The notes under the pieces: generated by a model
What the model saw: the letters and a program-made list of their open reading frames with translations, nothing else
Databases searched by the model: none
What the model was told of the DNA's origin: nothing
DNA from: a virus
Reading direction: 5' to 3' (one strand)
IMG/VR virus record: IMGVR_UViG_3300047359_000988
Span: 1-47,954 of that record
DNA length: 47,954 bases
Translations under genes and position numbers: made by a program
Shown here: piece by piece, positions 4,171 to 39,989 of the stretch
How the letters are laid out: every line of letters starts with the position of its first letter
Position numbering within the stretch: the first letter of the stretch is position 1

Positions 4171-4849
4171 CTTGGTTATCACCGCTAAATGTAGCTTCTA
4201 TAATATTATCACCTAAACCGCTTTGTGTAATATCATAAGTGCTACCGCCGCCAGTTACATCTATATTAATAGTATGTCCGCTAACGTCTCCGTTACCGTC
4301 TACATCAATTGTAAATGTATTGCCACTTGAAGCAAGACTTGCACTGTTATCATTAACTAATGTAAGTGCAACACTTTCGCCGTCTATGTTAGATGTAATC
4401 GTGTTTCCGTCACCGTCAACAGTAAAGTTCGCTACTAAGTCTTGTGCGTCTGCTGATTCACCTAAATATATTGCAAATGCGTTTGTGTCACCATTTGTTG
4501 TTATGTTTGCCGTTACGTTTTCGCAATTGGTACCTGAAGTTTGATCGCAAGTCATAGCTACTGTATTACTATTACCGATAAAACTCCATGTTCCTGTATA
4601 CGTATTCCCTTTGATAACTGCCGCTATCGAGTTTGAATCACCTTGCTGTGTAATACTAAATGTCATATCATCGCCATCTAGTGTTACATCAGTTTGTGAT
4701 GTTCCAATCACGTTGTTAGAACCATCTTGAATGATATCTAAGTCTAAATTATCGCCAACCTGGGTGATATAGATATCATTAGCAAACGATGGAACAGTTA
4801 TTAAAAGTGATACGCATGCTACTAACATACCGTATGTTATATTTCTCAT
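4145..4849 (-). CDS. Secreted curlin-repeat protein (smaller paralogue)
   Basis: The product is 234 residues with a signal peptide to about residue 23 (SFANDIY). The mature N-terminus (IYITQVGDNLDLDIIQDGSNN) closely resembles that of the 398-residue curlin protein, so the two are paralogues. Further GxxN repeats run to the end (GDNQDVDITQSD). It lies 3 nt after csgG, whose final codons (GAG GGC) supply the ribosome site. It is a likely second curli subunit. Which of the two is major subunit and which nucleator cannot be told from sequence. Confidence 0.85.
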   Translation of the reverse strand: MRNITYGMLVACVSLLITVPSFANDIYITQVGDNLDLDIIQDGSNNVIGTSQTDVTLDGDDMTFSITQQGDSNSIAAVIKGNTYTGTWSFIGNSNTVAMTCDQTSGTNCENVTANITTNGDTNAFAIYLGESADAQDLVANFTVDGDGNTITSNIDGESVALTLVNDNSASLASSGNTFTIDVDGNGDVSGHTINIDVTGGGSTYDITQSGLGDNIIEATFSGDNQDVDITQSD

Positions 4850-4852
4850 ATT

Positions 4853-5722
4853 TTAGCCCTCTTCTGAGTCATTTAATTCCTCAGATATTTCGTTTATTGT
4901 CTCTATAGATTCTTCAGCCTCTTCTTTGAATTTCCATAAGTCCCTGCGCTCGCCCTCAAAAATAAGTTCGATAACGCCCTGTTCTACAGCTGCCCTCACA
5001 GCGTAGTTTACAGGTTCATTGACTGAAAACCCAGCTTCTGTCTCTACTAATTTAGTTCCTAAATCAAAGAACTTAAAGATATCCGCTCCGGATCTATAAC
5101 TCGCGATTGTCTTTTCGGTTGCTATACTCATTAACACTTTCCCTGTGCTAACGCTTACTAGCCTCATGACTACAGTAACAGTGTCCACGCGGTACTCTGT
5201 CTGTATGCCTAAGCCTAAATATCTTGCGCCTGCCCCACCAACAGCCGTATTACTATCGTATCCTACTACACCGCCTTCTAGTATTAACCCTGCAAATAGC
5301 AAGGGCTTCATCGGTGTAGGACCAGTGGGAAGCTCTTTCTCGTAAACTTCTCGTGTCTGCCTAATTAATTGCCTTTCTTTTATTAAATTATCCATTCCAA
5401 CACGTTCGACAACATCAAACCATTGTCCGTTGCCTACGTCTTGTAGGGCCTTAATGACCCAAACTTCGCTACCTTGTGTAACCGCACTACTTAAACTTGC
5501 TACCATATCCGAAGGTTTACGTTGACCTGTTCTATCACTAAACTGGTATACAGCTATAGTAATCTTTTGTCCGTCAACACCTGGAACGTCTTCCAATCTC
5601 TTTTGGATTGGACTAGCCTGCAATGTTGGTGATGTGGCAGTGTCCTCAAGTATTTGTAAACTTGGGTTCATTGCACACCCGCCTAACATAGCAAGTGCCA
5701 CTAAGGCTGCAAGTATTTTCAA
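4853..5722 (-). CDS. csgG: CsgG-like curli secretion channel lipoprotein
   Basis: The product is 289 residues with a lipobox LAMLGGC (Cys16) for outer-membrane lipidation. The CsgG core is clear: IAVYQFSDRTGQRKP, then SSAVTQGSEVWVIKAL, then WFDVVERVGMDNLIKERQLIR, then the barrel-forming part around GLGIQTEYRVDTVTVVMRLV. In CsgG, nine copies form the outer-membrane pore that exports curli subunits. The start is a TTG overlapping the csgF stop (TTGA), with a strong GGGGGAG ribosome site 8 nt upstream. The acidic helical tail (last about 25 residues) is longer than in enteric CsgG. Confidence 0.93.
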   Translation of the reverse strand: MKILAALVALAMLGGCAMNPSLQILEDTATSPTLQASPIQKRLEDVPGVDGQKITIAVYQFSDRTGQRKPSDMVASLSSAVTQGSEVWVIKALQDVGNGQWFDVVERVGMDNLIKERQLIRQTREVYEKELPTGPTPMKPLLFAGLILEGGVVGYDSNTAVGGAGARYLGLGIQTEYRVDTVTVVMRLVSVSTGKVLMSIATEKTIASYRSGADIFKFFDLGTKLVETEAGFSVNEPVNYAVRAAVEQGVIELIFEGERRDLWKFKEEAEESIETINEISEELNDSEEG

Positions 5723-6312: not shown

Positions 6313-7446
6313 TTAGACTAGTGTGGCTTGCATGCTCATACCACGTTGTTGTCCGTTAAGGTATAGAGCGCCTAGTTTAAATTTATCAACAGCAACAGAT
6401 AAGTCTTCAAAGTGAAGTGTTGTAATGTTGTCGCCGCTTGCTTTCATTAATAACATACTTGTGAAGTCTTGCTTTGCTTTGTAACTTGCAAATGCTACAG
6501 GAGCAATAGTTCTAGTTGTATGATTAGGGTATGAATTAGCTGCGTTGTTGATCAAACTCTCATCTGCATTAGGATATGCATACTGTAATAAACGTTTGAA
6601 TATTTGTTTTTGTTCTTGAATCATAAGTGGAGTAGGCTGTGCGCCTTCTTCAACTTTTAAGTATTGTGGATCACTTAATACATCTACAATGTTAGGTAAT
6701 GTTTTTGCACTTTGACGTGTTGACTTAAACATACTAACACTCTTAGGACATTTCTTAGGATCTATTCTACTTTCAGAACTTCTAATGTAAGTGTCTAGTG
6801 GATAGTCGTTCATTGCTGTCCAACGTCCGCCACCTTTGCCGCCTGCTGATGTTTTAACTTCAACAAGGTCATTGCCGTATTTTAAATCATAACTTGCTTT
6901 AGGATCTGTACCTGCTGTAACCTTTCTGTGGAAACATGCAATAGCAAGTTCGCCTGGTCCTGCTTCACCTGCGTTTTTACCAATTAGACCCGGATCGTTA
7001 ATCATAGCCTTAAACATTGTTCTTGCTGTTTGACTACCTTCGAACCAAGTGTCCATTGATTGTGGTGTGCCTGACTTGTCAAATATTGCTTCTGGCTTAA
7101 TGCAATTTGTTGTAGCAAACTCTTTTAAGAATGCAACTTTGTCGTTAGTAGGAATTTCTAGCTCAATAATCATTTGTGCTAGTCTGTTAACAAATTTTTC
7201 TGCGTCACTATCTGATCTAAAATACTTTGTTGAAACTCTAGTAATGCCGCCTTTACGTAGTATAGATTCTACTCTGTGTAATACACTAGCATCATCTACA
7301 CGCATAACTCTATCAGCAACCTGTTGCTGTAAGTCTTTTACTTCTTTGTCGTCATACGTATCTGAACCAACATTGACATTGGCCATCTTTTTGGCAGGTA
7401 CTTCATCACCTGGTGCTTCGACTAATTTAAAATCTTGATAACGCAT
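6313..7446 (-). CDS. Putative virion protein with capsid-targeting-like N-terminus and nuclease-like motif
   Basis: The product is 377 residues. The N-terminus MRYQDFKLVEA resembles the T4 capsid-targeting peptide that ends at a (L/I)-x-E cleavage point for the head protease. In the middle, GPGELA (E166), YDLKYGND (D187/D193) and VEVKTS (E196-x-K198) have the spacing of a PD-(D/E)XK nuclease core. Both points are readings of motifs, not proven homology. A late-type box lies 24 nt upstream inside the pcyX 3' end. An internal head protein with nuclease activity is possible; otherwise the function is unknown. Confidence 0.5.
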   Translation of the reverse strand: MRYQDFKLVEAPGDEVPAKKMANVNVGSDTYDDKEVKDLQQQVADRVMRVDDASVLHRVESILRKGGITRVSTKYFRSDSDAEKFVNRLAQMIIELEIPTNDKVAFLKEFATTNCIKPEAIFDKSGTPQSMDTWFEGSQTARTMFKAMINDPGLIGKNAGEAGPGELAIACFHRKVTAGTDPKASYDLKYGNDLVEVKTSAGGKGGGRWTAMNDYPLDTYIRSSESRIDPKKCPKSVSMFKSTRQSAKTLPNIVDVLSDPQYLKVEEGAQPTPLMIQEQKQIFKRLLQYAYPNADESLINNAANSYPNHTTRTIAPVAFASYKAKQDFTSMLLMKASGDNITTLHFEDLSVAVDKFKLGALYLNGQQRGMSMQATLV

Positions 7447-7459
7447 GTATTGTTATTCC

Positions 7460-8167
7460 CTATATAGAATATTTATCTAATTTAGGAAACAACATGTCGG
7501 TACAGAACTTGTCTACATCTGCTTCTGCAAGTCCTAGTGTTTTCATTACGTTTGCTGTGTGAGGATTTTGTTGCTGATTTTCACAGTAATAGTTTTGTGC
7601 GGCTAGTGTCATAAACTTATCACCATAACCTTCAAACTGTGGAACTTCATCGAACCATGCTTCTAAGTTTGCTATTGCTAGATCAATTATTGAAACAGCC
7701 TCTTCTTCTGTACGCACATTGCCTGCGGCAATCATACTGTCTGTGAAGATGTTAGTTGCCCATTCTGGTAACTTACGTTGCTTAGTTGGTACAAAGTCTT
7801 TAACAGCATCTTTGTAGCCTTCAACCATAGGATGATCTTCGCCACCACTACTTGCACTAAAGTCATGAAAGGCACCAGTCATTTTGTTTTTGCCTGCTAT
7901 AACATCAAACCCGTATATAGGTGCATCGTTGTCTAGCGTAGGAAAACAACATACATGCATCATCCATAAGCCTTTAGACTCACGTGCATCTACAACGTCT
8001 ATATGCGCTCTGCGTACATTTTTATTAGCCCATACTCTGTTTACCCATCCATTGTCAGGTTGGTTAAAGTCTGCTAATCCTGGTTCGTCAAATTCTGTTG
8101 CATGCTTTTCAAATATTTCAATTATTTGATCTTGGCATTCAATCAGTCTGTTCCATATAATGCTCAA
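7460..8167 (-). CDS. pcyX: Ferredoxin-dependent bilin reductase, PcyX-like
   Basis: The product is 235 residues, the usual size of viral bilin reductases. The core MMHVCCFP (His71) and PIYGFDVIAGK (Asp88) aligns with the PcyA catalytic His88 and Asp105, with the same 17-residue spacing, followed by GAFHDFSAS. The C-terminal YCENQQQN...FPKLDKY segment also fits the family. These enzymes reduce biliverdin with ferredoxin electrons; PcyX enzymes from marine viruses make phycoerythrobilin. The start overlaps the end of the heme oxygenase gene by 29 nt, so substrate supply and use are co-transcribed. Subclass PcyX rather than PebS or PcyA is inferred from the non-cyanophage context. Confidence 0.85.
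   Translation of the reverse strand: MSIIWNRLIECQDQIIEIFEKHATEFDEPGLADFNQPDNGWVNRVWANKNVRRAHIDVVDARESKGLWMMHVCCFPTLDNDAPIYGFDVIAGKNKMTGAFHDFSASSGGEDHPMVEGYKDAVKDFVPTKQRKLPEWATNIFTDSMIAAGNVRTEEEAVSIIDLAIANLEAWFDEVPQFEGYGDKFMTLAAQNYYCENQQQNPHTANVMKTLGLAEADVDKFCTDMLFPKLDKYSI
7470..7476 (-). promoter_or_regulatory. Late-type promoter box before the 377-residue gene
   Basis: The box reads ATAAATA on the minus strand (preceded by TAG). It is inside the last codons of pcyX and 24 nt before the ATG of the next gene. Confidence 0.45.
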
Positions 8168-8705
8168 TGTCTAACTCCATTAGTTCTTTAAATAGTTTTG
8201 TTGCAGAGTCAAAAACATATTTTGCTTCTTCAGCCATATCGTCATTGATCTTTGCACGGACTGTGTCCTTTAGTACAGAAGTATCTCCGTCAAACTGATA
8301 CATTCTAGCTTCGCCCGGTATACGTTTTTTAATCATTTGTCCGCCGCTTAGGTCGCCCATATGTAAAACGTATATGTGAGCCATTACTTTTGTTGGATCA
8401 GTCATAATTGATTTCATATGTTCAATGTAGTCGTTAGTGCTTTCAACTATCGGCGGTGGTAGTTGATTATTCCATAATTCTAAATAGTCTTCGTGTATTG
8501 CGTTCTTACGTCTTATTGCATGTAAATCATCTAGTAAGCCATGCGTAGTAGCAACAGCCTCTAGCAGATCGTATTTCTTGTGTTGGTTCCACAAGTATGT
8601 TGCGTAAAATTGTGGATTAATTTTTCCACTCATTAATACTTTAACAAACTCTTGGCGTTCTGCTTCTTGATGATGTTCCCATGTTAGTTCTTTTAAATTT
8701 GCCAT
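8139..8705 (-). CDS. ho1: Heme oxygenase (biliverdin-forming)
   Basis: The product is 188 residues from the ATG at 8705, one base after the clpS stop; the frame also reaches a TTG at 8723, which would overlap clpS. The proximal-heme-ligand region WEHHQEAE (His12) and the distal helix LHMGDLSGGQMIKK are diagnostic of heme oxygenase. It opens heme to biliverdin IX-alpha, CO and iron using ferredoxin electrons. Its direct neighbour pcyX uses the biliverdin. A release of heme iron for the infected cell is an alternative benefit. Confidence 0.92.
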   Translation of the reverse strand: MANLKELTWEHHQEAERQEFVKVLMSGKINPQFYATYLWNQHKKYDLLEAVATTHGLLDDLHAIRRKNAIHEDYLELWNNQLPPPIVESTNDYIEHMKSIMTDPTKVMAHIYVLHMGDLSGGQMIKKRIPGEARMYQFDGDTSVLKDTVRAKINDDMAEEAKYVFDSATKLFKELMELDIEHYMEQTD

Positions 8706-8706
8706 T

Positions 8707-9009
8707 TTATCCGTTTTCTTCAACTTTTACTTGCAGAGGGAATCCCTGGTTTCTGCTAAGTGTAGTTGCTTCAGTTGCTTTTACTTCAGCGATCTCGTAA
8801 GAGTAAACTCCTACAATGCCACTTCCTTCTGTATGTATCGTCATTGTTATTTCTTCTGCTGAAGCCTGGCTGTGTTTGAATACAGATATCAATAATGAAA
8901 CTACCCATTCCATTGGCGTTGCATCATCATTAAGAAATACTACCTTGTACTTACTAGGCTTCTCAATTTCTTGTTTTATTTTTTCATCAAGTTGTACATC
9001 TGTTGACAT
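8707..9009 (-). CDS. clpS: ClpS, N-end-rule adaptor of the ClpAP protease
   Basis: The product is 100 residues. It contains the ClpS signature YKVVFLNDDATPMEWVV, then IHTEGSGIVGVYSYEIAE and a C-terminal PLQVKVEE strand. ClpS binds N-degron residues and delivers proteins to ClpA, while blocking other ClpA substrates. The flexible N-terminal tail (about 20 residues) that engages ClpA is present. It lies between hsp20 and heme oxygenase in one transcript. A phage copy could redirect host proteolysis during infection (inference). Confidence 0.92.
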   Translation of the reverse strand: MSTDVQLDEKIKQEIEKPSKYKVVFLNDDATPMEWVVSLLISVFKHSQASAEEITMTIHTEGSGIVGVYSYEIAEVKATEATTLSRNQGFPLQVKVEENG

Positions 9010-15678: not shown

Positions 15679-17397
15679 TTATTTTTTCAACCGTTTCCAA
15701 ATAGTATCATCTGATTGTTCGCCGTTCTGTACGTACCCTTCTTCGTCTGGTACCCACGGTAACTTGTCAATCCTACCTTGTATATATAAAGTTTTCCAAC
15801 TTTTAAGGTTCTCGTCTGGATTATCTAGTTTCCATTGACGCTTGCGTTCGGCTATAGATGCATCTGCCTCAAGTGCATCTATGTGTTCACGTCTTTCAAT
15901 TTGTGATTGATCTTCGCTTGCTTTAAGTCTTAGGTCTTTTTTTTTAGATTCTTCTATTTCGTTTCCATAAAAGAATGCGTTTTTTGTATCTGGGTATTTT
16001 GATTCTTCAGCACTTTCAGCCATTGCCGTTGCGGCATCATCTACAGCACTCGGTAGTTCTTCTTTAGCTTCGGCTTCTTCGTGCTTCTGTGCCTTGTTGT
16101 TAAACAAGTCTACTGGGTATTCTTCTTCAGGCTCTGGCTCAGGCTCTGGTTCAAATGATGGAGGAACATTAGCAGAAATTATATCTGCTCTCATGCGTTC
16201 GTAGTTGATCCATTCATCGTTGTTAAGCTCAGGTTGTGGCTTACGTTTTCTATTCCATTCAAACGTGTATTGACTTGCTATTAGTAATAGTACAGCAAGA
16301 GGATCAAATACAAATATAATTGTAATAATAACCCAACGCACCGCTTCTTCTAATAAGTTTTTATTTGCTTGTTCGCCATACACAAATTCAGCAATGTATT
16401 TGATAGGTCCTACTTCTGCTTCTAGTTTTCTGTACTCTGCTTGTAGTTCAAATTTCTGATCAGTAAGTGTTTCAATTTCTGCATTTGCTGTTCGAACTCT
16501 TTCGAACTGTTCATCTAACAGTTCGTCAAGGTTAACATCGTCTGTACCTAACTTGCTTCTTAGTCTATTGATAAGTGTATTAGACTGTGCAATGTTATCG
16601 TCTGCAACAGTTCTTAGTCTTTTAATTTCTTCACGTGCGGCTATTACTGTAGGCGAGTTAGCAGAGTCTTGTATCTTAACTAACCATTCTGCACGTTCTA
16701 TTTGTTTTTGTTCTTTCCAGTCGCCAATCTTTTCTGCTGTCTTTTTACCAAAGATGCCGTCAGCACTAGCACCAATCATTTGTTGTGCTTTTGCTACTTC
16801 GCCATTGTCTACATAACCTTGTAGTACAGATATGTCTGCATCAATCTTATCTAGTTCATCTTGGTATAGTTGTGTTACATTTGCAATAATTACATTCTGC
16901 TCGTCAATGGCAGGTTGTATACGATCGTATGCTGTGTCAATACGTTTTTGTTCTTTATCTATTTGATCTTGAATTTGTGAATCGTTGTTAAATGTGCTTG
17001 ACTCTAATTCTCTAATTTTATTTTCAGCACGACCAACTTGACCAATGTATCTTGATATCTCATCTTCAATACGTTCTATTTGTGCAACACTTTCTTCGCC
17101 TGCACTTGTTTGTTCGATGTGTGCTTTACTTAGGAAACCAAAGATACCCATACTTGTTATAAGCATAAGAACGAACACCGCAGAGGCGAGATAAGTTCTC
17201 AGCCACCAAGCAGCTTTGCTCCAATGCTTGTGTAACCAAACAGCGGTCACAAGTTTACCAACCTCTAGCACACCGCCCATAATCATAATTGGGATAGCGG
17301 CGGCTGCGAATATAGCAACCAGTCCTGCTACAGAATAGTAAATTGCCACGGCCGATATTGCAAGGGCCGTGATTAGTGTTAGTATGCCTAGTAACAT
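15679..17397 (-). CDS. Large membrane and coiled-coil protein
   Basis: The product is 572 residues from the ATG at 17397, which has GAGGGAAA just upstream; the longer frame to 17484 would overlap the previous gene. Three hydrophobic helices lie near the N-terminus (about 3-25, 27-48, 65-87). A long charged coiled-coil region (about 95-350) is followed by two more helices (about 360-395) and a Pro/Glu-rich acidic tail. A short segment, MIGASADGIFGKKTAEKIGDW, resembles the core of peptidoglycan-binding domain 1. Similar large membrane proteins occur in T4-like marine phages. Role unknown; anchoring in or remodelling the host inner membrane is possible. Confidence 0.72.
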   Translation of the reverse strand: MLLGILTLITALAISAVAIYYSVAGLVAIFAAAAIPIMIMGGVLEVGKLVTAVWLHKHWSKAAWWLRTYLASAVFVLMLITSMGIFGFLSKAHIEQTSAGEESVAQIERIEDEISRYIGQVGRAENKIRELESSTFNNDSQIQDQIDKEQKRIDTAYDRIQPAIDEQNVIIANVTQLYQDELDKIDADISVLQGYVDNGEVAKAQQMIGASADGIFGKKTAEKIGDWKEQKQIERAEWLVKIQDSANSPTVIAAREEIKRLRTVADDNIAQSNTLINRLRSKLGTDDVNLDELLDEQFERVRTANAEIETLTDQKFELQAEYRKLEAEVGPIKYIAEFVYGEQANKNLLEEAVRWVIITIIFVFDPLAVLLLIASQYTFEWNRKRKPQPELNNDEWINYERMRADIISANVPPSFEPEPEPEPEEEYPVDLFNNKAQKHEEAEAKEELPSAVDDAATAMAESAEESKYPDTKNAFFYGNEIEESKKKDLRLKASEDQSQIERREHIDALEADASIAERKRQWKLDNPDENLKSWKTLYIQGRIDKLPWVPDEEGYVQNGEQSDDTIWKRLKK

Positions 17398-17413
17398 TGT
17401 ATTTCCCTCTATG

Positions 17414-17420
17414 TATTTAT
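17414..17420 (-). promoter_or_regulatory. Late-type promoter box before the 572-residue gene
   Basis: The minus strand reads GATAAATA, 17 nt before the chosen ATG. This leaves a very short leader that still contains the GAGGG ribosome site. Confidence 0.45.
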
Positions 17421-17422
17421 CG

Positions 17423-17866
17423 TTATTTTCGGACAAAATGCCACCTTGCATCTTCAAGATGCTTCTTACATACAGTTTCTTCAAAGTGTCGTGAACGACC
17501 TTTAACAGTTACTTGACTATAAACTACTCTACAGAATCCTCTACCTTGTGGATAACCGTGTACAGCCTTAACATGGCCCATTGCATTACGTTCGTACCAA
17601 CTAATAACCTTGCCGTAGTCGCTGTCTAACGCCGTATAAAAGGCGGCTGTTTGTTTTAGCTTCTGTTGCTTGTCTAGTCCATACTTGTTTGTAATATACA
17701 AGCCGTTTACAACATCAACCATAATGCTTGTGCCACTGGTTGGACTGTTAACAGTAGGAACTTGTACAGCACTAGTCTGATAAGGCGTAGTTGTTGAACA
17801 CGCCCCTAGACTAATTATTGTTGCCGTTAATATTAATGATTTCAGTGCTACCGTCAAGTTTCTCAC
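17423..17866 (-). CDS. Lipoprotein with surface-antigen-like C-terminal domain
   Basis: The product is 147 residues. The lipobox SLGAC (Cys23) marks an outer-membrane or periplasmic lipoprotein. The C-terminal half (GRGFCRVVYSQVTVKGRSRH...VCKK...WHF) resembles the end of RT0821/Lpp0805-type surface proteins, with a Cys pair. The start is a GTG with GGAG 9 nt upstream. The first 56 nt overlap the preceding lipoprotein gene in another frame, an unusually long overlap. Function unknown; it is one of three consecutive lipoproteins next to the lysis enzyme. Confidence 0.72.
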   Translation of the reverse strand: MRNLTVALKSLILTATIISLGACSTTTPYQTSAVQVPTVNSPTSGTSIMVDVVNGLYITNKYGLDKQQKLKQTAAFYTALDSDYGKVISWYERNAMGHVKAVHGYPQGRGFCRVVYSQVTVKGRSRHFEETVCKKHLEDARWHFVRK

Positions 17867-27845: not shown

Positions 27846-27852
27846 TATTTAT
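27846..27852 (-). promoter_or_regulatory. Late-type promoter box before the beta-helix tail gene
   Basis: The minus strand reads CATAAATAC, about 30 nt before the GTG start and across the end of the exonuclease gene. Confidence 0.5.
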
Positions 27853-28529
27853 GCTTGTTTCTCATAATACATTTCGCAACGCTTCCACCACTCTTGCGCC
27901 CAGTCATCGAACTCATCTGGCCATATATCAAACTGTTGATATTCTAAATCACGTGAACACATAAAGATGTGTCCTTCACGTATATTTGTGCCGTGTACTT
28001 CGTTGTGTGCTAGAGCATACGCTGTTAGCTGTAGATAGTAGTCATATACCCACTCAGGTTTCTTAGGTTTATTAGTTTGTTTGAAGTCCATTATACATGG
28101 ATTGCCTTTATACTGTCCTACTAAGTCAGTTGTTCCTGCATAGATACCAGGTACATATAAAGGAACTTCGCTTCCCCATATCTCGTCTACATCGCCCATT
28201 GCTTCTTCGCGTATTCTAGTTGCCATTGCATGTGCTTTTTGTGCATAAGGATTGCTACCGCAAGTAGGCCATTCGCCAAACTCTATATAGTCTTCAAGGT
28301 ATTTGTGCATACGTGTACCCACGCCTGCCGCTTCGGTTACAATCTCTTGTGCTTTCTTTTCACCTACACGTTTGCGCCAAGCAATCAAGTGTGATTTATC
28401 TTTTGTTGCATCTAAGATAGTTGTTACACTTGCTACTGGTACACCGCCAGGTGCGGCATACTTACGTTTGCCGTTAACTTCGACTCGCTTGAGTCTTTCG
28501 TATTTGTATTTCTCGATGATTAGTGACAT
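27849..28529 (-). CDS. RecB-like PD-(D/E)XK exonuclease
   Basis: The product is 226 residues. The full motif set of RecB-family nucleases is present: His75 in GTRMHKYLED, Asp135 in GTTDLVG, IMDFK (Asp148, Lys150), and Gln167-x-x-x-Tyr171 in YYLQLTAYAL. Similar single-domain exonucleases are core genes of T4-like marine phages. It likely processes DNA ends in recombination or degrades host DNA. It has a consensus sigma-70-like promoter, unlike the surrounding structural genes, so it is probably made early. Confidence 0.88.
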   Translation of the reverse strand: MSLIIEKYKYERLKRVEVNGKRKYAAPGGVPVASVTTILDATKDKSHLIAWRKRVGEKKAQEIVTEAAGVGTRMHKYLEDYIEFGEWPTCGSNPYAQKAHAMATRIREEAMGDVDEIWGSEVPLYVPGIYAGTTDLVGQYKGNPCIMDFKQTNKPKKPEWVYDYYLQLTAYALAHNEVHGTNIREGHIFMCSRDLEYQQFDIWPDEFDDWAQEWWKRCEMYYEKQA

Positions 28530-28583: not shown

Positions 28584-28895
28584 CTATAAGTCGCTTAGGT
28601 CAGTTGCTCTTTTTGCCATGTCGCCAACTGTGTCAGTATTGCTAGGCTCAGTGCTACCTACTTGATCCATTGAGCTATCATTAATAGTTACCCCTTGTGG
28701 GTCAAACTTAACTAGCTTCTGGAGTTGTGCGTTTTGATCGTATGTTTCTTTGAATGTGTTGTAATCAAACTGTGGAACGCCTGCTTTTTTCATATAGCCG
28801 TTGAGTTTATCCCAACTAACAGTTGTTCCAGGTTTAATTGTTTTGATAATTTGTACTAGCGTACCAGATTCGTCTAATGCTTCAGCTATTTGAGC
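28584..28895 (-). CDS. C-terminal part of the structural protein in the -1 frame (or separate small gene)
   Basis: This is an open frame of 103 codons that begins exactly at the A-run where the upstream gene stops. It reads AQIAEALDESGTLVQIIKTI, then a globular stretch (WDKLNGYMKKAGVPQFDYNTF) and an acidic end (MAKRATDLSDL). The only ATG is at 28793 (69 codons) and has no ribosome site, so independent translation is doubtful. Production by -1 frameshifting, or a single base missing from the A-run in the assembly, would make a 353-residue fusion. Confidence 0.6.
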   Translation of the reverse strand, partial: AQIAEALDESGTLVQIIKTIKPGTTVSWDKLNGYMKKAGVPQFDYNTFKETYDQNAQLQKLVKFDPQGVTINDSSMDQVGSTEPSNTDTVGDMAKRATDLSDL

Positions 28896-29644
28896 TTTTT
28901 TTTTGAACGCTCTACACTTTCACGCTTTTCACGACCAGCTTCTTCTTCTCCGCCTGCCGCAGCATCGTCTGCACCAAAGTCATCGCCCATGTCCATGTCG
29001 TCTGCTGGAGCTTCTGCATCCATATCCATGTCCATGTCGTCTGTTGGTTCCATGTCGCCCAAGTCACCCATCTCGTCACCCATAGGCTCTTCAGCGCCGC
29101 CTTCACCTGTAAGCATACCTACACCGTTTGTAAGTGCAGAACGTGTAGTTTCCATTACTTCGTACATTTGCTCTAATGCTGGCTTAATAGTGTTAGTAAA
29201 TGACTCAGCTTGTTCACTACCCATCTCGTCTCTAATAGCATCTGCTAGTTCAAGCATTGATTCTGTTTGCATTTCTGCTGTGTCTTCCATCCAACCTGTT
29301 ACACGGTCTACCATGTCTTTGGCTGCCATTACTAATTCTGCTTTATCTTCTTCGCCTTCAGTAATAGTTGCTTCAAGTACAGGCTCGTCAATGTCAGCTC
29401 TTTCACCAATTTCAGCATTAAGAACATCTAGGAAAAGTTTTGATTTTTGATATGCTGGTGTTTGAGTTGAGTTGAAACTTTCTTTTGTTTCTACTTGACT
29501 AAGTGTAGTTCTTAGTTTGTTTTGAGCATCTTGTAGTTGCCCAAGTGTAAATTCTTCTAAGTTTAGACGCTGTCCAAACTTCTTTGCGAGGCTCTCATTA
29601 AGTGCCTTAGCCGTAATTGGTTTTGAAATTTCTCTTATATTCAT
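28886..29644 (-). CDS. T4-like virion structural protein, acidic (zero-frame product)
   Basis: The product is 252 residues in the zero frame. The N-terminus MNIREISKPITAKALNE is followed by LNLEEFTLGQLQDAQNKLRT, which I recognise from structural proteins of cyanomyophages. Helical region VTGWMEDTAEMQTESMLELADAI follows. An Asp/Met-rich acidic segment (about residues 185-235) and a basic end follow. The frame stops three codons after a run of nine A; the next 103 codons continue in the -1 frame. The late-type boxes at 29676-29686 fit a virion or prohead-core role. Confidence 0.72.
   Translation of the reverse strand: MNIREISKPITAKALNESLAKKFGQRLNLEEFTLGQLQDAQNKLRTTLSQVETKESFNSTQTPAYQKSKLFLDVLNAEIGERADIDEPVLEATITEGEEDKAELVMAAKDMVDRVTGWMEDTAEMQTESMLELADAIRDEMGSEQAESFTNTIKPALEQMYEVMETTRSALTNGVGMLTGEGGAEEPMGDEMGDLGDMEPTDDMDMDMDAEAPADDMDMGDDFGADDAAAGGEEEAGREKRESVERSKKKLK
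28895..28901 (-). promoter_or_regulatory. Candidate -1 ribosomal frameshift site A AAA AAG
   Basis: The minus strand reads A AAA AAG in the zero frame, inside a run of nine A (28896-28904). This is the same slippery heptamer as E. coli dnaX. The zero frame stops two codons later and the -1 frame is open for 103 codons. A tenth A would also join the frames, so a homopolymer sequencing error is the main alternative. I see only weak downstream stems. Confidence 0.5.
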
Positions 29645-30115: not shown

Positions 30116-30308
30116 TTTGCACCACCATTACAATATTGTCTTTCAGTATTTTACTTACTAGACTTTTCCTTATTAAGTTATCAATTATGACTTGTTCTCT
30201 AGGAGAAAAACCTTGTAGAGGTTGCACAGGGTTTACTTTTTCTAATACCTTTGCTTCCTCATTTGAAATAGCTATACTAAAGCTATTAATTAACTCGTTT
30301 AGTTTCAT
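30096..30308 (-). CDS. Small helical protein with targeting-like N-terminus
   Basis: The product is 70 residues. The start MKLNELINSF resembles the MKINEL starts of neighbouring putative virion genes. The rest is helical (SPREQVIIDNLIRKSLVSKIL). The ATG overlaps the stop of the upstream gene by 4 nt and the stop overlaps the downstream gene by 20 nt. Function unknown; co-location suggests a small internal virion or assembly protein. Confidence 0.62.
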   Translation of the reverse strand: MKLNELINSFSIAISNEEAKVLEKVNPVQPLQGFSPREQVIIDNLIRKSLVSKILKDNIVMVVQNEFGTS

Positions 30309-30565
30309 TGTCCTGGTGTTGCGAAAACCTTGTCGCCTCTTTTAACAGTTGTTGCTGGATTGGCTTTCGCGCCCGGTTGGGGCTTTTTGTTTATAGTGAC
30401 CTTTTTAGTCTTAGGATCTTTTTGTAGGGCCGATGGATTCTTTTTAAGATCGATAATAGTTTTAGTGCCGTCCATATTATCTACTTCTGCGCTTTGTCCT
30501 GGCTTGAGGTTCTTGATAATTGCTGGTTTAGATCCTTGCATTTCTGTAATTTCATTAATTTTCAT
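30305..30565 (-). CDS. Small basic protein with capsid-targeting-like N-terminus
   Basis: The product is 86 residues. MKINEITE then MQGSKPA fits a targeting peptide with an I-x-E cleavage point. The rest is basic and Pro/Lys-rich (KNPSALQKDPKTKKVTINKK), with a small beta-like core (AEVDNMDGTKTIIDLKK). It lies one base after the basic paralogue pair. Likely an internal head protein; no enzyme motif is seen. Confidence 0.62.
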   Translation of the reverse strand: MKINEITEMQGSKPAIIKNLKPGQSAEVDNMDGTKTIIDLKKNPSALQKDPKTKKVTINKKPQPGAKANPATTVKRGDKVFATPGQ

Positions 30566-30566
30566 C

Positions 30567-30893
30567 TTATATCCTCTTGGCCTTAGACTTTTTACGTTGA
30601 GTCCTTATACCTTTATTTACTCTAGGCAATCTGCTTGATGCAGGGTTTGCTCTTTTTGTTCTTGCTATCTTAACTGCCTGTCGCTTTGCTCCAGCACGTT
30701 TTACTTTCTTAAGAGTAGTTGCTTTCTTAACACTCTTTGGTGCTGTACATGTTGACATCTTTGCAACAATACGTCCTTTACGTGGACCACTATTGCATCT
30801 GTACCTACGAACATTCTTACCGCCTTTACGGCCATAAATGCTAGTTGCGCCTTCTTCAATTGAAGTTGTTTCTGTCAACTCTCTTAAGTACAT
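30567..30893 (-). CDS. Highly basic Cys-containing protein (paralogue 1)
   Basis: The product is 108 residues, very rich in Lys and Arg. The N-terminal MYLRELTETTSIEEG resembles a capsid-targeting leader. The core GGKNVRRYRCNSGPRKGRIVAKMSTC aligns with the next gene's GNKVVRKFRCSGGRRHGRIVSNIAQC, so the two are tandem paralogues with two conserved Cys. The basic tail resembles DNA-condensing proteins. Probably packaged with DNA in the head (inference). Confidence 0.68.
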   Translation of the reverse strand: MYLRELTETTSIEEGATSIYGRKGGKNVRRYRCNSGPRKGRIVAKMSTCTAPKSVKKATTLKKVKRAGAKRQAVKIARTKRANPASSRLPRVNKGIRTQRKKSKAKRI

Positions 30894-31198
30894 TATAATC
30901 TCTTTGGTCTACTTGCTTTATTAAGAGCTGCTACTCTGCGGCTTGCTGAACTTACTCTTTTAGTCTTACGTGCCTTACGTGCCATTTTAGCACCAAGCCT
31001 TGCTTTTGTAACTTTTAGTTTCAAACGCTTCTTCATGTCAGGCTTTGCAAAACACTGAGCAATATTAGAAACAATACGTCCATGTCGCCTGCCGCCACTA
31101 CATCTAAACTTACGAACGACTTTGTTGCCGCGTTTGGCCCAAGCCATTTTAGCTTCTTCTAAATCGTCAAGCGGTAAGGTAATCTCTCTTAATAACAT
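30893..31198 (-). CDS. Highly basic Cys-containing protein (paralogue 2)
   Basis: The product is 101 residues, paralogous to the 108-residue protein that overlaps its stop. The leader MLLREITLPLDDLEEA contains two possible (L)-x-E cleavage points. A Cys-bearing core and a Lys/Arg/Ala tail (MARKARKTKRVSSASRR) follow. It is a good candidate for an internal DNA-binding head protein, like the T4 internal proteins in position and style though not in sequence. Confidence 0.68.
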   Translation of the reverse strand: MLLREITLPLDDLEEAKMAWAKRGNKVVRKFRCSGGRRHGRIVSNIAQCFAKPDMKKRLKLKVTKARLGAKMARKARKTKRVSSASRRVAALNKASRPKRL

Positions 31199-31214
31199 AT
31201 AGTTATTTAGTTGA

Positions 31215-31445
31215 TTAATTAACGTTTAATAAAATTACGATTATTGTGGAAAGTAAACCAGCAACGATTGTGCCAGCTGTGCCAACAAGCACTTTAGTCA
31301 TTGACTTTTGCCCATCGGTGATATCTTTATGAATGTGTTCTACTTTGTCTTCTATTTTAGTGAGACGAGCTTCAAGTTGTTCATATCTTTCTTGACATAA
31401 ATCAACGTGTGCTTCTAAGTTTTTCTTTTCTAGGCTGGTGGCCAT
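31215..31445 (-). CDS. Small tail-anchored coiled-coil membrane protein
   Basis: The product is 76 residues. A charged coiled-coil N-terminus (MATSLEKKNLEAHVDLCQERYEQL to about residue 48) is followed by one C-terminal hydrophobic helix (VGTAGTIVAGLLSTIIVILL). The architecture resembles XhlA-type hemolysin/holin-associated proteins. GGAG precedes the ATG. It sits in the structural block, far from the lysin, so a holin role is only a possibility. A late-type box lies about 93 nt upstream. Confidence 0.62.
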   Translation of the reverse strand: MATSLEKKNLEAHVDLCQERYEQLEARLTKIEDKVEHIHKDITDGQKSMTKVLVGTAGTIVAGLLSTIIVILLNVN

Positions 31446-31537
31446 CTATTATCTCCGTGTATCCTGCTCAAGGATTTTGTTAAGTAAACTCGTAGTTAGC
31501 CTTAAAATAGATGCCTGTTTGTTTTGTTGTATACTTT

Positions 31538-31544
31538 TATTTAT
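31538..31544 (-). promoter_or_regulatory. Late-type promoter box before the tail-anchored protein
   Basis: The minus strand reads GATAAATA at the end of the 126-residue gene, about 93 nt before the ATG at 31445. Confidence 0.42.
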
Positions 31545-31924
31545 CATATCTGTTCAAAATATATGTTCTTATACTTCTTATTGGTTGACTGAAAAATGGA
31601 ATTATTGAACTCTATAGTTTCGCTCAAACCGGCTATAAAGGGTACTAAATTAAAGTCTTCTTTTAACATAGGTACTTCTAAACTTCCTTCACGTTCTACT
31701 TCAAACTCAATTGTCCAAACTTTTTGTTCACCTGTGTAAGTTGAGCCAAAGTATTTTGTAGACTCTGTTATATCTGTAACAACAACCGATGTAGGATTAC
31801 TACGCAACCCTAGTGTGTTTATTACTGTCATGTAGTTTTGATGTTGATTGTACATGTATCTATCCTCAGTTCTACGAGCATAGGTTGGTGTAATATCTAC
31901 TAAAGTTTTTAATATAAAACGCAT
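31544..31924 (-). CDS. Conserved T4-like virion-associated protein
   Basis: The product is 126 residues from the ATG at 31924 (MRFILKTLVDITPTYARR). An ATG six codons earlier (31942) directly abuts a terminator T-run and is less likely. The segment QNYMTVINTLGLRSNP and the beta-rich remainder (KVWTIEFEVEREGSLEV) recall a conserved cyanomyophage protein. No enzyme motif is present. Probably a tail or neck component, from context only. Confidence 0.68.
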   Translation of the reverse strand: MRFILKTLVDITPTYARRTEDRYMYNQHQNYMTVINTLGLRSNPTSVVVTDITESTKYFGSTYTGEQKVWTIEFEVEREGSLEVPMLKEDFNLVPFIAGLSETIEFNNSIFQSTNKKYKNIYFEQI

Positions 31925-31942
31925 GTTAATACTTATAGCCAT

Positions 31943-31973
31943 AAAAAAAGGCCCACTTAAAAAGTGAGCCTTT
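31943..31973 (-). terminator. Strong rho-independent terminator
   Basis: The minus strand has an 11-bp stem AAGGCTCACTT/AAGTGGGCCTT followed by seven T. It lies about 50 nt past the stop of the 124-residue structural gene and just before the next gene, so that structural gene is mostly its own transcript. Confidence 0.88.
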
Positions 31974-32020
31974 TGATGTGACGCCTTTATAACATCACGG
32001 TTCCTAAAGGTAGCTAGGAA

Positions 32021-32395
32021 TTATGCTAAGTCGCCTGCTGTTAGTGTGATTTCAGCTACAGTTGATGTAACACCTGTTGCTGTATCTACTAATGCTTTAA
32101 CAGCTGCTGCTACGTCTGTGTCAGTGTTAGCTGAAACATATGCGTTTGCTGTTGCTGAGTCAATCATTACACATACTATGTCGTCAGCTCTTTCGCCAAC
32201 GTGTACAACGCTCATTTGTGTTTGGATTGCACTAATTGCTTTTGCCAAGTTACCTTGTGTGAACGCTGCTACACCGTCTGCTGACGCTGTATCTGCTGTT
32301 GCTACGTTTGTTCCTGTAATCTTAAGGATGATTGGATCATATCCATAAAAACTACCTGCGGTTGTTAAACCATTTACTTTTGCTTGTGTTGCCAT
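32021..32395 (-). CDS. Small structural (decoration-like) protein
   Basis: The product is 124 residues, Ala/Thr-rich. It starts MATQAKVNGLTTAGSFYGYDP and has an alpha/beta pattern (GNLAKAISAIQTQMSVVHVG, ADDIVCVMID). I associate it with abundant structural proteins of T4-like marine phages. AGGAGAAATAAA gives a strong ribosome site, the leader has two hairpins, and a strong terminator follows; this points to high, separate expression. The exact role (for example head decoration) is inferred. Confidence 0.7.
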   Translation of the reverse strand: MATQAKVNGLTTAGSFYGYDPIILKITGTNVATADTASADGVAAFTQGNLAKAISAIQTQMSVVHVGERADDIVCVMIDSATANAYVSANTDTDVAAAVKALVDTATGVTSTVAEITLTAGDLA

Positions 32396-32422
32396 TTTAT
32401 TTCTCCTGTTTAATATAAAATT

Positions 32423-32473
32423 GAAGAGTATTACCTCTTCGGCTCTAATGACACTATCCGTAAACTCTTTACG
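32423..32473 (-). other. Two leader hairpins upstream of the structural gene
   Basis: The gap holds two perfect inverted repeats: GAAGAG/CTCTTC (32423-32440) and CGTAAA/TTTACG (32459-32473). In the minus-strand transcript both lie in the leader of the gene starting at 32395. A CTAAATA segment precedes them near 32490. They may protect the message from decay. Confidence 0.5.
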
Positions 32474-32515
32474 AAGTGCTTATTATTATTTAGCCTTTTT
32501 ATAAAAAAATAGTGA

Positions 32516-32890
32516 TTATGAGCCCTTTTTGGCTCTCTGATGTAGTAATTTAAGCATTTGAACGTATCCTGGGCCTGCTGTAACGATATCATCCAGCATT
32601 TCTAGTGCAGGAACAAAGCCTTTTACCATTGTACTGGGTACGCTTTTGCCAGCAAGTGCTAGTTCTAAGAACTTTTTAGTGAGCATCATATTACGTTGAC
32701 CTACAATCATTCTATATAGAGCTAGGTCTCTTGCTTCAACACGTTTTTCAATACGGTCAAATGCACCTTCATCTAGCTCTTCTAGATCGTTAAAAACTAA
32801 TTGTAGTTCTTCTAACTTACCGAGTAACTCAGCTGACTCTTTGTCAGGCTGTATCTCAGTATCGTTTTCTAATGCCCTAAGAAAGTCCAT
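32516..32890 (-). CDS. Helical conserved phage protein
   Basis: The product is 124 residues and almost wholly helical (LLGKLEELQLVFNDLEELDEGAFDRIEKRVEARD), with a positively charged end (HQRAKKGS). It overlaps the upstream gene by one base (TAATG). No motif is recognised. Position within the prohead/virion gene run suggests a scaffold or assembly role, which is inference. Confidence 0.62.
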   Translation of the reverse strand: MDFLRALENDTEIQPDKESAELLGKLEELQLVFNDLEELDEGAFDRIEKRVEARDLALYRMIVGQRNMMLTKKFLELALAGKSVPSTMVKGFVPALEMLDDIVTAGPGYVQMLKLLHQRAKKGS

Positions 32891-33258
32891 TACTTCTTCT
32901 TGCGTAAGATATTAAGAATACTAACTAATCCTGCTGAGTCTTGAATTTTCTTTTGAAGTTGTAGTTTTTGCGCTGGCTTGCCACCTGGGCTTTTAAGTGC
33001 TTTAAGTATTGCTACTGCTTCAGGACGTTCAACTCTAATCTTCTTGTTGTCAGAAGTTACAACACTTCTTACAGGATTTTTAATATCGTCGTCTTCTTCC
33101 GAATCTTCAATTCTCATAAGCTGGACTTGCATAGGCTCACCTTTAAGTTTGACTGCTACACTGTCATCGTCTTTGTCTAATTCTGATCCATGCGGATCAA
33201 GACCTGGACGGTAATCCATATCAAAGTCTGCTTCTAAAATTAATTCATTAATTTTCAT
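32890..33258 (-). CDS. Putative virion protein with capsid-targeting-like N-terminus
   Basis: The product is 122 residues. MKINELILEA contains a clear L-x-E/A cleavage-like point after nine residues. An acidic segment (KDDDSVAV, RIEDSEEDDD) is followed by a basic helical tail ending RKKK. The ribosome site AAGGAAAATAAA precedes the ATG. Function unknown; probably a head-internal protein. Confidence 0.64.
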   Translation of the reverse strand: MKINELILEADFDMDYRPGLDPHGSELDKDDDSVAVKLKGEPMQVQLMRIEDSEEDDDIKNPVRSVVTSDNKKIRVERPEAVAILKALKSPGGKPAQKLQLQKKIQDSAGLVSILNILRKKK

Positions 33259-33270
33259 TTTATTTTCCTT

Positions 33271-34362
33271 TTAGTTTGGTTGCCACCTAGTTCGTGGAAC
33301 CAGTTTTATTTTTGACTTTTGAGCAACGTAACCTTCGCCGCCTTGCTCATCGCCTGTCGATGCTTTGATATCTGCATCTGCTCCGTCTAGTTGTGTAATA
33401 ACATCATCCTTTGCAATCATTATTTGTTTTACTAAACTAAAGATTGCTGGCAACGCCTCTGGATTGCTTTCATTCATTGCCGCTAGTTTTGCCTGTTGTC
33501 CTTGACTAACTTTGCTTGTTTTAAGCCAATCAAAAAATCCATTTTCTATATTATCTATCTGCTGTGTGCGAGTCATATGATTCATATAGGTGTAAATGAT
33601 TGCTGCTGGATTGCTCAAACCTTGTACACCTGCTAGGAACTTATCAATATGTCCTGCATGAGCATTTACTTGTTTACGTATTTTGTCTGTTTCTTTTGTA
33701 TTAACTTCAGGTTGATGTGATACATACGTTTGTCCTAGTACAACAACATCTTTATTATTCAATTCGCCTGTTTGTTGTATAGGTTGTCCTGCCTTATCGC
33801 CAAAGTCATTGTAACGTGTGTGTACAGTAACACCTACTTTACTTTGTGCAATACGTTTGCCTATGTCACTGTTTGCATCTACAGTATATGTAACTTTGTT
33901 GGGTGTAAATTGTATTTTGCCGTCTTTAATTATATATGGTTTACCAGGATGATATAATAAATCACCGTACACATATTGATTTACACTTGGCGGAGTTGCA
34001 CTCTTAAGTATATTAAAAATTGCACCCATATCATTGCCAAATTTTTCACGCCACTCTTCACCTTTGCCTGAGGTCTTAATAAAGTTAGCAAGGTCTTCTG
34101 CACTCTTGCTTTTGTTTCTGCCCCAACCGTTCTTACCTACCATTACAAACTCGCCATTCTCTTCGCGACCCCAATAGATAGTAGGATTACCGTCCCATTT
34201 AATTGCAACATCTGAACTGTCAGTACCTAAGTTATCAAGTACGTCTGCGGCTTTAAGTGCGCCTTTAGATCCGTGAACAAAAACAAGGTCCTCTAAGTGT
34301 TGATATTCTCTACCAACCTTGGCTGCCTCAGTTAACGTGTGTCTGAACTCTGTAAATCTCAT
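33271..34362 (-). CDS. Ligase-like nucleotidyltransferase with targeting-like N-terminus (DUF6267-type)
   Basis: The product is 363 residues. MRFTEFRHTLTEAA fits a capsid-targeting peptide (L-x-E then A). VAIKWDGNPTIYWG carries the K-x-D-G motif (Lys55) of ATP-dependent DNA/RNA ligases and capping enzymes. VYGDLLYHPGKPY, and EGYVAQKSKIKLV at the C-terminus, resemble motifs III, IV and V. Together they suggest a covalent adenylyltransferase, though the spacing before the last motifs is unusual. The start overlaps the NTase gene by 4 nt. Its product may travel in the virion and seal nucleic acid (inference). Confidence 0.6.
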   Translation of the reverse strand: MRFTEFRHTLTEAAKVGREYQHLEDLVFVHGSKGALKAADVLDNLGTDSSDVAIKWDGNPTIYWGREENGEFVMVGKNGWGRNKSKSAEDLANFIKTSGKGEEWREKFGNDMGAIFNILKSATPPSVNQYVYGDLLYHPGKPYIIKDGKIQFTPNKVTYTVDANSDIGKRIAQSKVGVTVHTRYNDFGDKAGQPIQQTGELNNKDVVVLGQTYVSHQPEVNTKETDKIRKQVNAHAGHIDKFLAGVQGLSNPAAIIYTYMNHMTRTQQIDNIENGFFDWLKTSKVSQGQQAKLAAMNESNPEALPAIFSLVKQIMIAKDDVITQLDGADADIKASTGDEQGGEGYVAQKSKIKLVPRTRWQPN

Positions 34363-35126
34363 CTTGGAAGTAACTCTTTAATTCTACGTAGTTGTTTTTC
34401 ACCTAGTGTTTCTACAGCCACTTTTGATTTCTTCCATGGTGTATCGGCAAACTCGTTTTGTTCTTGTTTATCTACTAAATCTTTAGCCATAGGACTTTTA
34501 GCAACCATTGCTTCTACTGATGCTAAGTCTTTTGCTTTTGCATCACCACCTAAAAGTATCTTGGCAATTTCATCTAAGTTATTAGATATCATAGCATCAT
34601 CTCTACGATCTAACAATCCTTTGTATGCACTCCACTTCATGCCTTCTGGATGATTTTCATTCTTTGTATTCTTTGCTAGGTCCGCAATTAGTATCTGCTT
34701 GTGTACACCTTTATACGGTGAACCTTTTGGTATGTCATGAACATGAAACTTTTGTGCTGTGTCACCGTTAGCAACAACCATTATGTCAACTTGCTGTGCG
34801 GCTTTGCCTGCTGTTGTTTTAACATGGACACTTGTTCCGCTACGCTTTGTTTCATATCCTGCTTGTTGAAATAACTTTTCTAATTCTATTCTTGCATCTT
34901 TAGGAGTTGTAACATTAAAATGCTTAAACAATGCGCCGGCATCAATAATCATATCAAGGTCGCCGCTTATCTTACCTGGAGTTGGCGATGCGCCTGATCC
35001 TATTGGCAATGCTTTAGCACCTGTTTTAGTTGTTACACTATTAATCTGCTTCATCATGGCTGGAATAATTTTATGATCAAACGGTTCTGTACCTTGGAAT
35101 ATGTTTCCACCTTCATTCAGTATCAT
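34359..35126 (-). CDS. Pol-beta-superfamily nucleotidyltransferase
   Basis: The product is 255 residues from the ATG at 35126 with AAGGAAA upstream (an in-frame TTG lies at 35141). LPIGSGASPTPGKISGDLDMIID gives the G-S and D-x-D signature (Asp56, Asp58), and QQVDIMVV gives the third Asp114. The middle has a basic nucleic-acid-binding look, and the C-terminal third is helical. Family members add nucleotides to RNA, DNA or proteins. It overlaps the ligase-like gene, suggesting a joint end-healing and sealing function. Confidence 0.7.
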   Translation of the reverse strand: MILNEGGNIFQGTEPFDHKIIPAMMKQINSVTTKTGAKALPIGSGASPTPGKISGDLDMIIDAGALFKHFNVTTPKDARIELEKLFQQAGYETKRSGTSVHVKTTAGKAAQQVDIMVVANGDTAQKFHVHDIPKGSPYKGVHKQILIADLAKNTKNENHPEGMKWSAYKGLLDRRDDAMISNNLDEIAKILLGGDAKAKDLASVEAMVAKSPMAKDLVDKQEQNEFADTPWKKSKVAVETLGEKQLRRIKELLPR

Positions 35127-35376
35127 TATTTTTTCCTTCAATAATTCTTGTTATACTTCTTTTAAACTTACGTGGATCGCCCGACCTTATACTGTTAAGA
35201 AAACGCCTTTCTAATTCAGCGGCATTGTCTTGGTCATAAACACGGTGAATCATATTAAGCAAATTAATAGAGCTTTCAATTATGTTACTTGCTGTTGCTT
35301 CAATTAGAAGGTCATCGTTCTTAGGCTTACCTAAGTTATTAAGTTCTTCTAGTATGCTTCGTGTTTTCTTACGCAT
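35113..35376 (-). CDS. Small helical phage protein
   Basis: The product is 87 residues, helical and charged (NIIESSINLLNMIHRVYDQDNAAELERRFLN), with a basic end (RKFKRSITRII). It overlaps the NTase start by 14 nt and is first in the minus-strand run from 35.4 kb. No motif is recognised. It may be a structural or assembly partner of the two enzymes downstream. Confidence 0.62.
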   Translation of the reverse strand: MRKKTRSILEELNNLGKPKNDDLLIEATASNIIESSINLLNMIHRVYDQDNAAELERRFLNSIRSGDPRKFKRSITRIIEGKNNDTE

Positions 35377-39190: not shown

Positions 39191-39373
39191 ATGAAACCAA
39201 ATGGCAACTTTAATCTAACAGTAAAAGATGTAGAGCATATTGAACGTGCTCTACATCTACTTCAAACATCATTTGACAATGATGCAGACAAGAAAGAGAT
39301 AGTCAATTTATTGGCTAGACTGTACCATCAAAAGAATTGGTACAGACCTAAAGAAAACTATGTGAGTGGCTAA
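39191..39373 (+). CDS. 60-residue helical micro-protein
   Basis: The product is 60 residues, helical and charged ([33 protein letters not shown]), without membrane helix or known motif. It begins 17 nt after the previous stop and its TAA lies one base before the oxidase ATG. It is part of the same plus-strand transcript; function unknown. Confidence 0.68.
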
Positions 39374-39374
39374 T

Positions 39375-39989
39375 ATGGAACACTATATTCCAAATACAAT
39401 ATCAGACAAGTTTGCATACCGTTTTACTAGAACTATGAGATGGTTTGCAGATACATTCTTTCGTGAACGCTACGGACATAGAGCTGTAGTATTAGAAACA
39501 GTTGCGGCTGTACCCGGTATGGTAGGAGGCATGTGGACACACCTAAAGAGTCTACGCAAACTACGTCCTGGATACGGTCCATTAATACGCACACTTCTAG
39601 CAGAAGCAGAGAATGAGCGTATGCACTTAATGACTTTCATTGAGATTGCAAAGCCTAATTGGTTTGAGCGATTGCTTATACTAATCGCCCAAGGTATATT
39701 TTGGCATGTATACTTTCTTATATTCTTACTATCACCTAGAACAGCACATAGGATAGTAGGATACTTTGAAGAAGAAGCTGTTTACAGTTATACAGAGTAT
39801 CTTAAAGAAGTAGACGAAGGTAGACTAGAGAATATCCCTGCTCCACGAATTGCAATTGACTATTGGAACTTAGATGAAGATGCTAGGTTACGAGAAGTTA
39901 TAATTGCTGTTAGAGAAGACGAAGCAGGACATAGAGATGTTAATCATCATATTGCCGATACTGGCAATGTAGTGGTTGACAAGCACTAA
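39375..39989 (+). CDS. aox: Alternative oxidase (cyanide-insensitive ubiquinol oxidase)
   Basis: The product is 204 residues from the ATG at 39375 (an in-frame GTG lies at 39366). All di-iron ligands of the family are present with family spacing: Glu41 in [14 protein letters not shown], Glu81 and His84 in NERMHLMTF, Glu132 in [14 protein letters not shown], Glu183 and His186 in [11 protein letters not shown]. It is shorter than eukaryotic forms because it lacks the N-terminal extension. It oxidises ubiquinol and reduces oxygen to water without pumping protons, on the inner face of the membrane. In an infected heterotroph this could keep carbon flow and NADH turnover going. The sequence matches AOX proper rather than the plastid-type oxidase of cyanophages. 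Confidence 0.94.

Follow-up and report, generated by a model that had tools for sequence, protein, structure and literature searches.

Among the closest described parallels to the site examined here is that of dnaX, in which the same type of slippery sequence gives two products with a common N part (PMC1088944, PMC5009743). In E. coli dnaX, A_AAA_AAG directs a ribosomal -1 shift, and in Thermus thermophilus dnaX, polymerase slippage occurs on nine A's (PMC1088944, PMC5009743). A run of nine A's with a length conserved among homologues is considered very likely to represent purposeful slippage (PMC1088944). Long-tailed phages, with the exception of T4, have kept the common tail-gene frameshift (PMC5009743), and in the capsid proteins of T7/T3 (gene 10), Listeria phages and Lactobacillus phage A2, as proposed for the gene described here, a share of the head protein gains a C-terminal extension from another frame. 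In T4, internal proteins reach the core via a short N-terminal targeting sequence that is removed by gp21 (PMC9026906). Known cleavage sites of this protease include ITE and LTE, and its logo also accommodates LIE (PMC5694885, PMC9026906).

The window, the whole stretch of 47,954 nt that was analysed (IMG/VR virus record IMGVR_UViG_3300047359_000988, positions 1 to 47,954), carries the gene of interest on the minus strand. The frame-0 open reading frame, hereafter the N part, spans 28886..29644 (ATG at 29644), encodes 252 aa and ends in VERSKKKLK, from TCA AAA AAA AAG CTC AAA TAG. The A9 run (T9 on the plus strand) occupies 28896..28904, the zero-frame slippery heptamer A AAA AAG lies at 28895..28901, and the zero-frame stop TAG at 28886..28888 follows the run by 7 nt (0-22 nt in relatives). 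The -1 frame, or C part, is open for 103 codons at 28587..28895 (AQIAEALDESGT...MAKRATDLSDL; stop at 28584-28586). In the window, its earliest ATG is at residue 35, and neither ATG, GTG nor TTG is present before that position. The first-pass annotation had described exactly this layout, a zero frame stopping just past the heptamer and a -1 frame open for 103 codons with no start of its own, and the sequence bears it out. The predicted fusion comprises 250 + 103 = 353 aa. The annotated product sizes of 252 and 353 aa therefore agree, with the refinement that both products are probably precursors, as protease-like sites flank each part.

Downstream of the gene, a PD-(D/E)XK exonuclease is encoded at 27849..28529 (-). 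Elsewhere, the window includes curli-type genes at 1829-5722 (-), encoding CsgG (E 4e-48), two curlin-repeat proteins and one FecR-domain protein, as well as a heme oxygenase gene at 8139-8723 (-; Pfam, E 2.5e-19) and a phage-borne alternative oxidase gene at 39366-39989 (+; Pfam AOX, E 1.5e-82).

The window is AT-rich, and its two A9/T9 runs compare with about 0.8-1.3 expected. Since the run count matches the composition of the window, the A9 run by itself is not evidence; on the sequences compared, the evidence beyond chance is the conservation of the layout across relatives. The other minus-strand A9 (15937-15945; TCT AAA AAA AAA GAC) lies within a 601 aa open reading frame at 15679-17484 and looks incidental, as a long alternative frame is absent after the run.

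Relatives were collected in IMG/VR scans, for which the window protein, a profile and two divergent members served as queries, and in one scan of genome contigs. The 323 matching loci were reduced to 148 distinct sequences, and in every one of them a stop closes the N frame, with >60 open codons in the -1 frame. This supports the core claim of the first-pass annotation, that a slippery site joins two frames of a virion gene. The lowest identity between N parts is 49%, and they form 25 clusters at 70% identity; hence, the 148 relatives are far from clonal, though not independent. Pairwise differences in the C part, counted by -1-frame codon position, are 1573, 1111 and 2752 for positions 1, 2 and 3, respectively. 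Changes are thus dominated by the third position, as expected of a translated protein under protein-level selection. When isolated phages were searched with the window protein, at the DNA and at the protein level, nothing matched at 1e-5.

Of the 148 relatives, 142 have a run of A8-A10 at the junction (A9 in 134, A8 in four and A10 in four; A9 or A10 in 138), and the remaining six, which form a nested group, have a TAATG stop/start overlap. In the zero frame, all 142 slip-bearing relatives carry either A_AAA_AAG or A_AAA_AAA. The commonest arrangement at the zero-frame stop is the run followed directly by the stop, AAG TAA. The serine codon ahead of the lysines is TCA in 124/131, and its wobble A changed five times on the tree, whereas each of 46 fourfold sites of the gene changed at least 11 times, with a median of 24. 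This base is not part of the A_AAA_AAG heptamer, so the longer run appears to be what is under selection. The third lysine codon is AAG in 130/139. Where the serine wobble A is lost, nine A's are regained via AAA at the third lysine in 5/9 sequences, and AAA is otherwise found at that codon in 4/130 (Fisher p 4e-5, an optimistic value, the sequences being related). In six relatives (L010, L011, L032, L078, L209 and L210), tandem second A9 copies are present near the slip site, in the zero or -1 frame.

Stimulatory elements, which often accompany programmed -1 sites but are not required, were also sought. A Shine-Dalgarno sequence is present upstream of the slip site in 38/142 relatives, against about 37 expected, and is thus not enriched. 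No specific stem-loop was found downstream of the slip site in the window (z +1.28), and folding across the family gave a mean z of about -0.8 to -1.2 from +3 to +80, with no peak at the slip site.

The presence of a zero-frame X_XXY_YYZ heptamer in 142/142 slip-bearing relatives, together with -1 coding conserved in 148/148, indicates that this jumbo-phage virion gene almost certainly includes a programmed -1 frameshift. Which machine slips is a more evenly weighted question. The term 'dnaX-type' used in the first-pass annotation fits the E. coli ribosomal and the Thermus polymerase versions alike, and the data do not tell them apart. The ribosome is given an even chance of being the main slipping machine. 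Slippage of RNA polymerase on the A9 run, as in T. thermophilus dnaX, would produce the same N-C fusion and has a probability a little under one half. It is favoured by a run kept beyond the heptamer, with so few changes of the serine wobble A and with nine A's restored in five of the nine sequences that lost it, by the lack of detected ribosomal stimulators (Shine-Dalgarno among the 142, stem-loop in the window), and by the agreement of the A9 run with the published length-conservation criterion (PMC1088944). However, a few lineages have only A8 and yet retain A_AAA_AAG, and the predominant AAG at the third lysine makes the heptamer the one most prone to shifting in E. coli (PMC5009743). Since A9 holds two overlapping ribosomal heptamers, the length of the run does not discriminate between the machines. 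Loci with A6 heptamers were considered as proof of a purely ribosomal mechanism, and this argument was dropped because each such locus has an upstream A9 in the same open window. Relative to dnaX, the phage gene differs in that it is a virion gene, that the shift yields the longer product, and that neither a Shine-Dalgarno nor a stem-loop stimulator was detected.

The N part matches phrog_14154, 'virion structural protein', over residues 94-249 (E 4.2e-17). A search with an HMM built from N recovers PA5oct gp247 (annotated ESI-MS/MS), Atu_ph07 gp044 and a Phosso protein, and PA5oct gp247 itself matches phrog_14154. The assignment of the locus to a virion gene in the first-pass annotation is upheld by this match and by the MS-annotated homologues, and the frame-0 product is very probably a head or virion protein. 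Residues 97-180 are predicted to form long helices, and residues from about 182 to 239 are predicted to be acidic and disordered. Residues 1-96 look like a propeptide, and the start, MNIREISKP...LNE↓S (the arrow marks the putative cleavage point here and below), is targeting-like. Among the relatives are two long ones, a virus record of 357 kb and a MAG-binned contig of 335 kb. Both encode T4-type gp23 and gp21, the latter a protease of the gp21 family (PF03420), and the lineage is therefore placed among the T4-superfamily jumbo phages. In the window's own contig, which is a fragment, no gp21 or gp23 was identified.

The C part was modelled, with moderate confidence, as a winged-helix-like domain over residues 6-72, with an H-E-H-H-H-E-E topology (mean pLDDT 69; about 80 over residues 11-70). 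The top structural matches of the model are mostly winged-helix domains and are of middling quality (best Z 7.6, rmsd 2.7, 76 aligned residues), and Foldseek returned E values of 0.1-1. These matches suggest that C may bind nucleic acids. Comparison of C with Pfam, PHROGs and PDB sequences gave no credible family, the rows obtained including weak calmodulin/EF-hand matches.

Putative prohead-protease sites were found at the boundaries of both parts. In the window, these are LNE17↓S (29594..29602 (-)), present in 147/148 relatives, ITE96↓G (29357..29365 (-)), represented by [VIL]xE↓G in 141/148, and, in the C part just past the slip site, IAE↓A (28881..28889 (-)). In 146/146 relatives, C has the general motif [LIVFM]xE among its first 16 residues, with P1' mostly A, G or S, as compared with 234/2816 (8%) of background 16-residue windows of C, [LIV]xE being a short motif. 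The motif in C is encoded by varying codons at varying distances from the slip site, and so does not arise as a consequence of the slip sequence. Sites of the [LI]xE type thus lie at the domain boundaries of N and C, as would be expected of gp21-type substrates. The gp23 N-termini of the two long relatives include LLE↓S and LLE↓G, with LAE↓S or LSE↓T near residue 41.

Small-gene clusters at 30305-35376 (-) and 6313-7446 (-) in the window encode proteins that begin in a targeting-like manner and have a [LIVF]xE site near the N-terminus (MRYQDFKLVE↓A, MYLRELTE↓T, MLLREITLPLDDLEE↓A, MKINELILE↓A, MRFTEFRHTLTE↓A and others), which, judged from these starts, may be further internal head proteins. 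One of these genes, at 35113-35376, matches phrog_11854, a virion structural protein. In another genome (L328, G002:C57), the gene at 314 (+), upstream of a gp21 homologue, encodes an acidic protein with repeated VDEA units, each of which fits the protease motif. In this, the protein is similar to a T4 core protein that is to be digested.

The likely overall explanation is that this is a programmed frameshift gene of an uncultured T4-superfamily jumbo-phage lineage that doses C into the head. Decoding that keeps the frame would end at the zero-frame stop to give N (252 aa), and at TCA AAA AAA AAG a set fraction, through a -1 shift or one extra A in the mRNA, would give N-C (353 aa). N, with its targeting-like start, would enter the prohead core, and the C domain would ride along. 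A gp21-type prohead protease would then cut at LNE↓S, [IVL]xE↓G and the [VIL]xE just past the slip site, leaving mature N and a free winged-helix-like C domain inside the head, such that the shift frequency would set the C:N dose. Delivery of C on N followed by cleavage is somewhat favoured. We infer that the fusion is produced and cut, and that C functions within the head, where DNA may be its target; a product ratio and DNA binding by C are put forward on the same footing. The T4 internal proteins IPI-III and Alt are similar in that a short targeting-like stretch at the N-terminus ends in [LI]xE, and the relatives encode a gp21-family protease. Unlike these proteins, the C domain lacks its own targeting start in most of the clade and would acquire one by way of the frameshift. 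The gene also differs from those of T7/T3, Listeria phages and phage A2 in that its product is not the major capsid protein, and in that the extension is predicted to be a winged-helix-like domain behind a protease-like site rather than an Ig-like surface domain.

In the six loci with no slip run, the N stop overlaps the C start, in the -1 frame, and C begins with the targeting-like MKISDIINE↓G. This TAATG group is nested within the slip-bearing relatives (support 0.998) and its sister group has A9, and the split gene is thus derived in this group. The isolated phages show a similar arrangement. PA5oct gp247, Atu_ph07 gp044 and the Phosso protein share with N the homologous core and an [LI]xE just before it, and in each phage a small separate gene follows directly, with a start (MKIKDIL-, MRLIDLL- or MRLSEII-like) similar to that of C in the TAATG group. 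The N homologues differ in being encoded by single-frame genes with no A9 at the junction. In PA5oct, an exonuclease is encoded three genes past the N homologue, which parallels the exonuclease downstream here. Comparison of C with the small downstream genes of the isolates, by HMM and profile-profile methods, was not significant; as homology to C was not established, these genes are a positional parallel only. The Phosso protein had no relatives in IMG/VR.

Several other readings of the layout were weighed against delivery of C by frameshift and cleavage. The TAATG arrangement would be consistent with two separate genes throughout, with C made from its own initiation or coupled re-initiation and no frameshift. 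This is very improbable for the family as a whole, as C in the window has no start codon before residue 35, no start was found up to 60 nt past the stop in 94/148 relatives, and the slip run is retained in all but the TAATG relatives. An A9 run is in principle prone to replication slippage, and phase variation could toggle A9 and A10 in the population; an in-frame N-C fusion is found in none of the 148 genomes (0/148), leaving this reading with hardly any probability. The first-pass annotation had itself offered one missing A, in a run that should be ten within a continuous frame, and homopolymers are error-prone. However, N and C in one continuous frame were looked for in the 148 distinct relatives and found in none, and the same layout recurs in sequences from many metagenomes and all 25 clusters. 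Even in the four A10 relatives, a zero-frame stop follows the run at once, and C is still in the -1 frame. A sequencing or assembly error is therefore of negligible probability.

The fate of the fusion is a separate matter. Phage capsid proteins extended by a frameshift usually stay uncut (PMC5009743), and the longer, minor form could likewise remain in the capsid here, as in T7/T3 gene 10. This is considered rather unlikely, as the protease-like motif is kept in every C part through variable nucleotide solutions, and C is a protein of its own in the nested clade. Returning to cleavage of the fusion, the frameshift may, tentatively, be viewed as a cargo-loading device: N would lend its capsid targeting to a fixed fraction of a possibly DNA-binding winged-helix C, which the protease would free in the head, and the nested subclade would reach the same end via a split gene with its own targeting-like start.

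No prior report of this frameshift was found in the literature, of which coverage was limited, nor was the combination of recoding with prohead proteolysis found described in the limited literature searched. The variants with A8, A9 or A10, phase-shifted runs or TAATG represent natural tests of ribosomal versus polymerase slippage. Annotation pipelines will cut the protein short at the zero-frame stop and miss the C domain. The locus documents a deeply conserved virion-gene frameshift in a widespread marine lineage of T4-superfamily jumbo phages.
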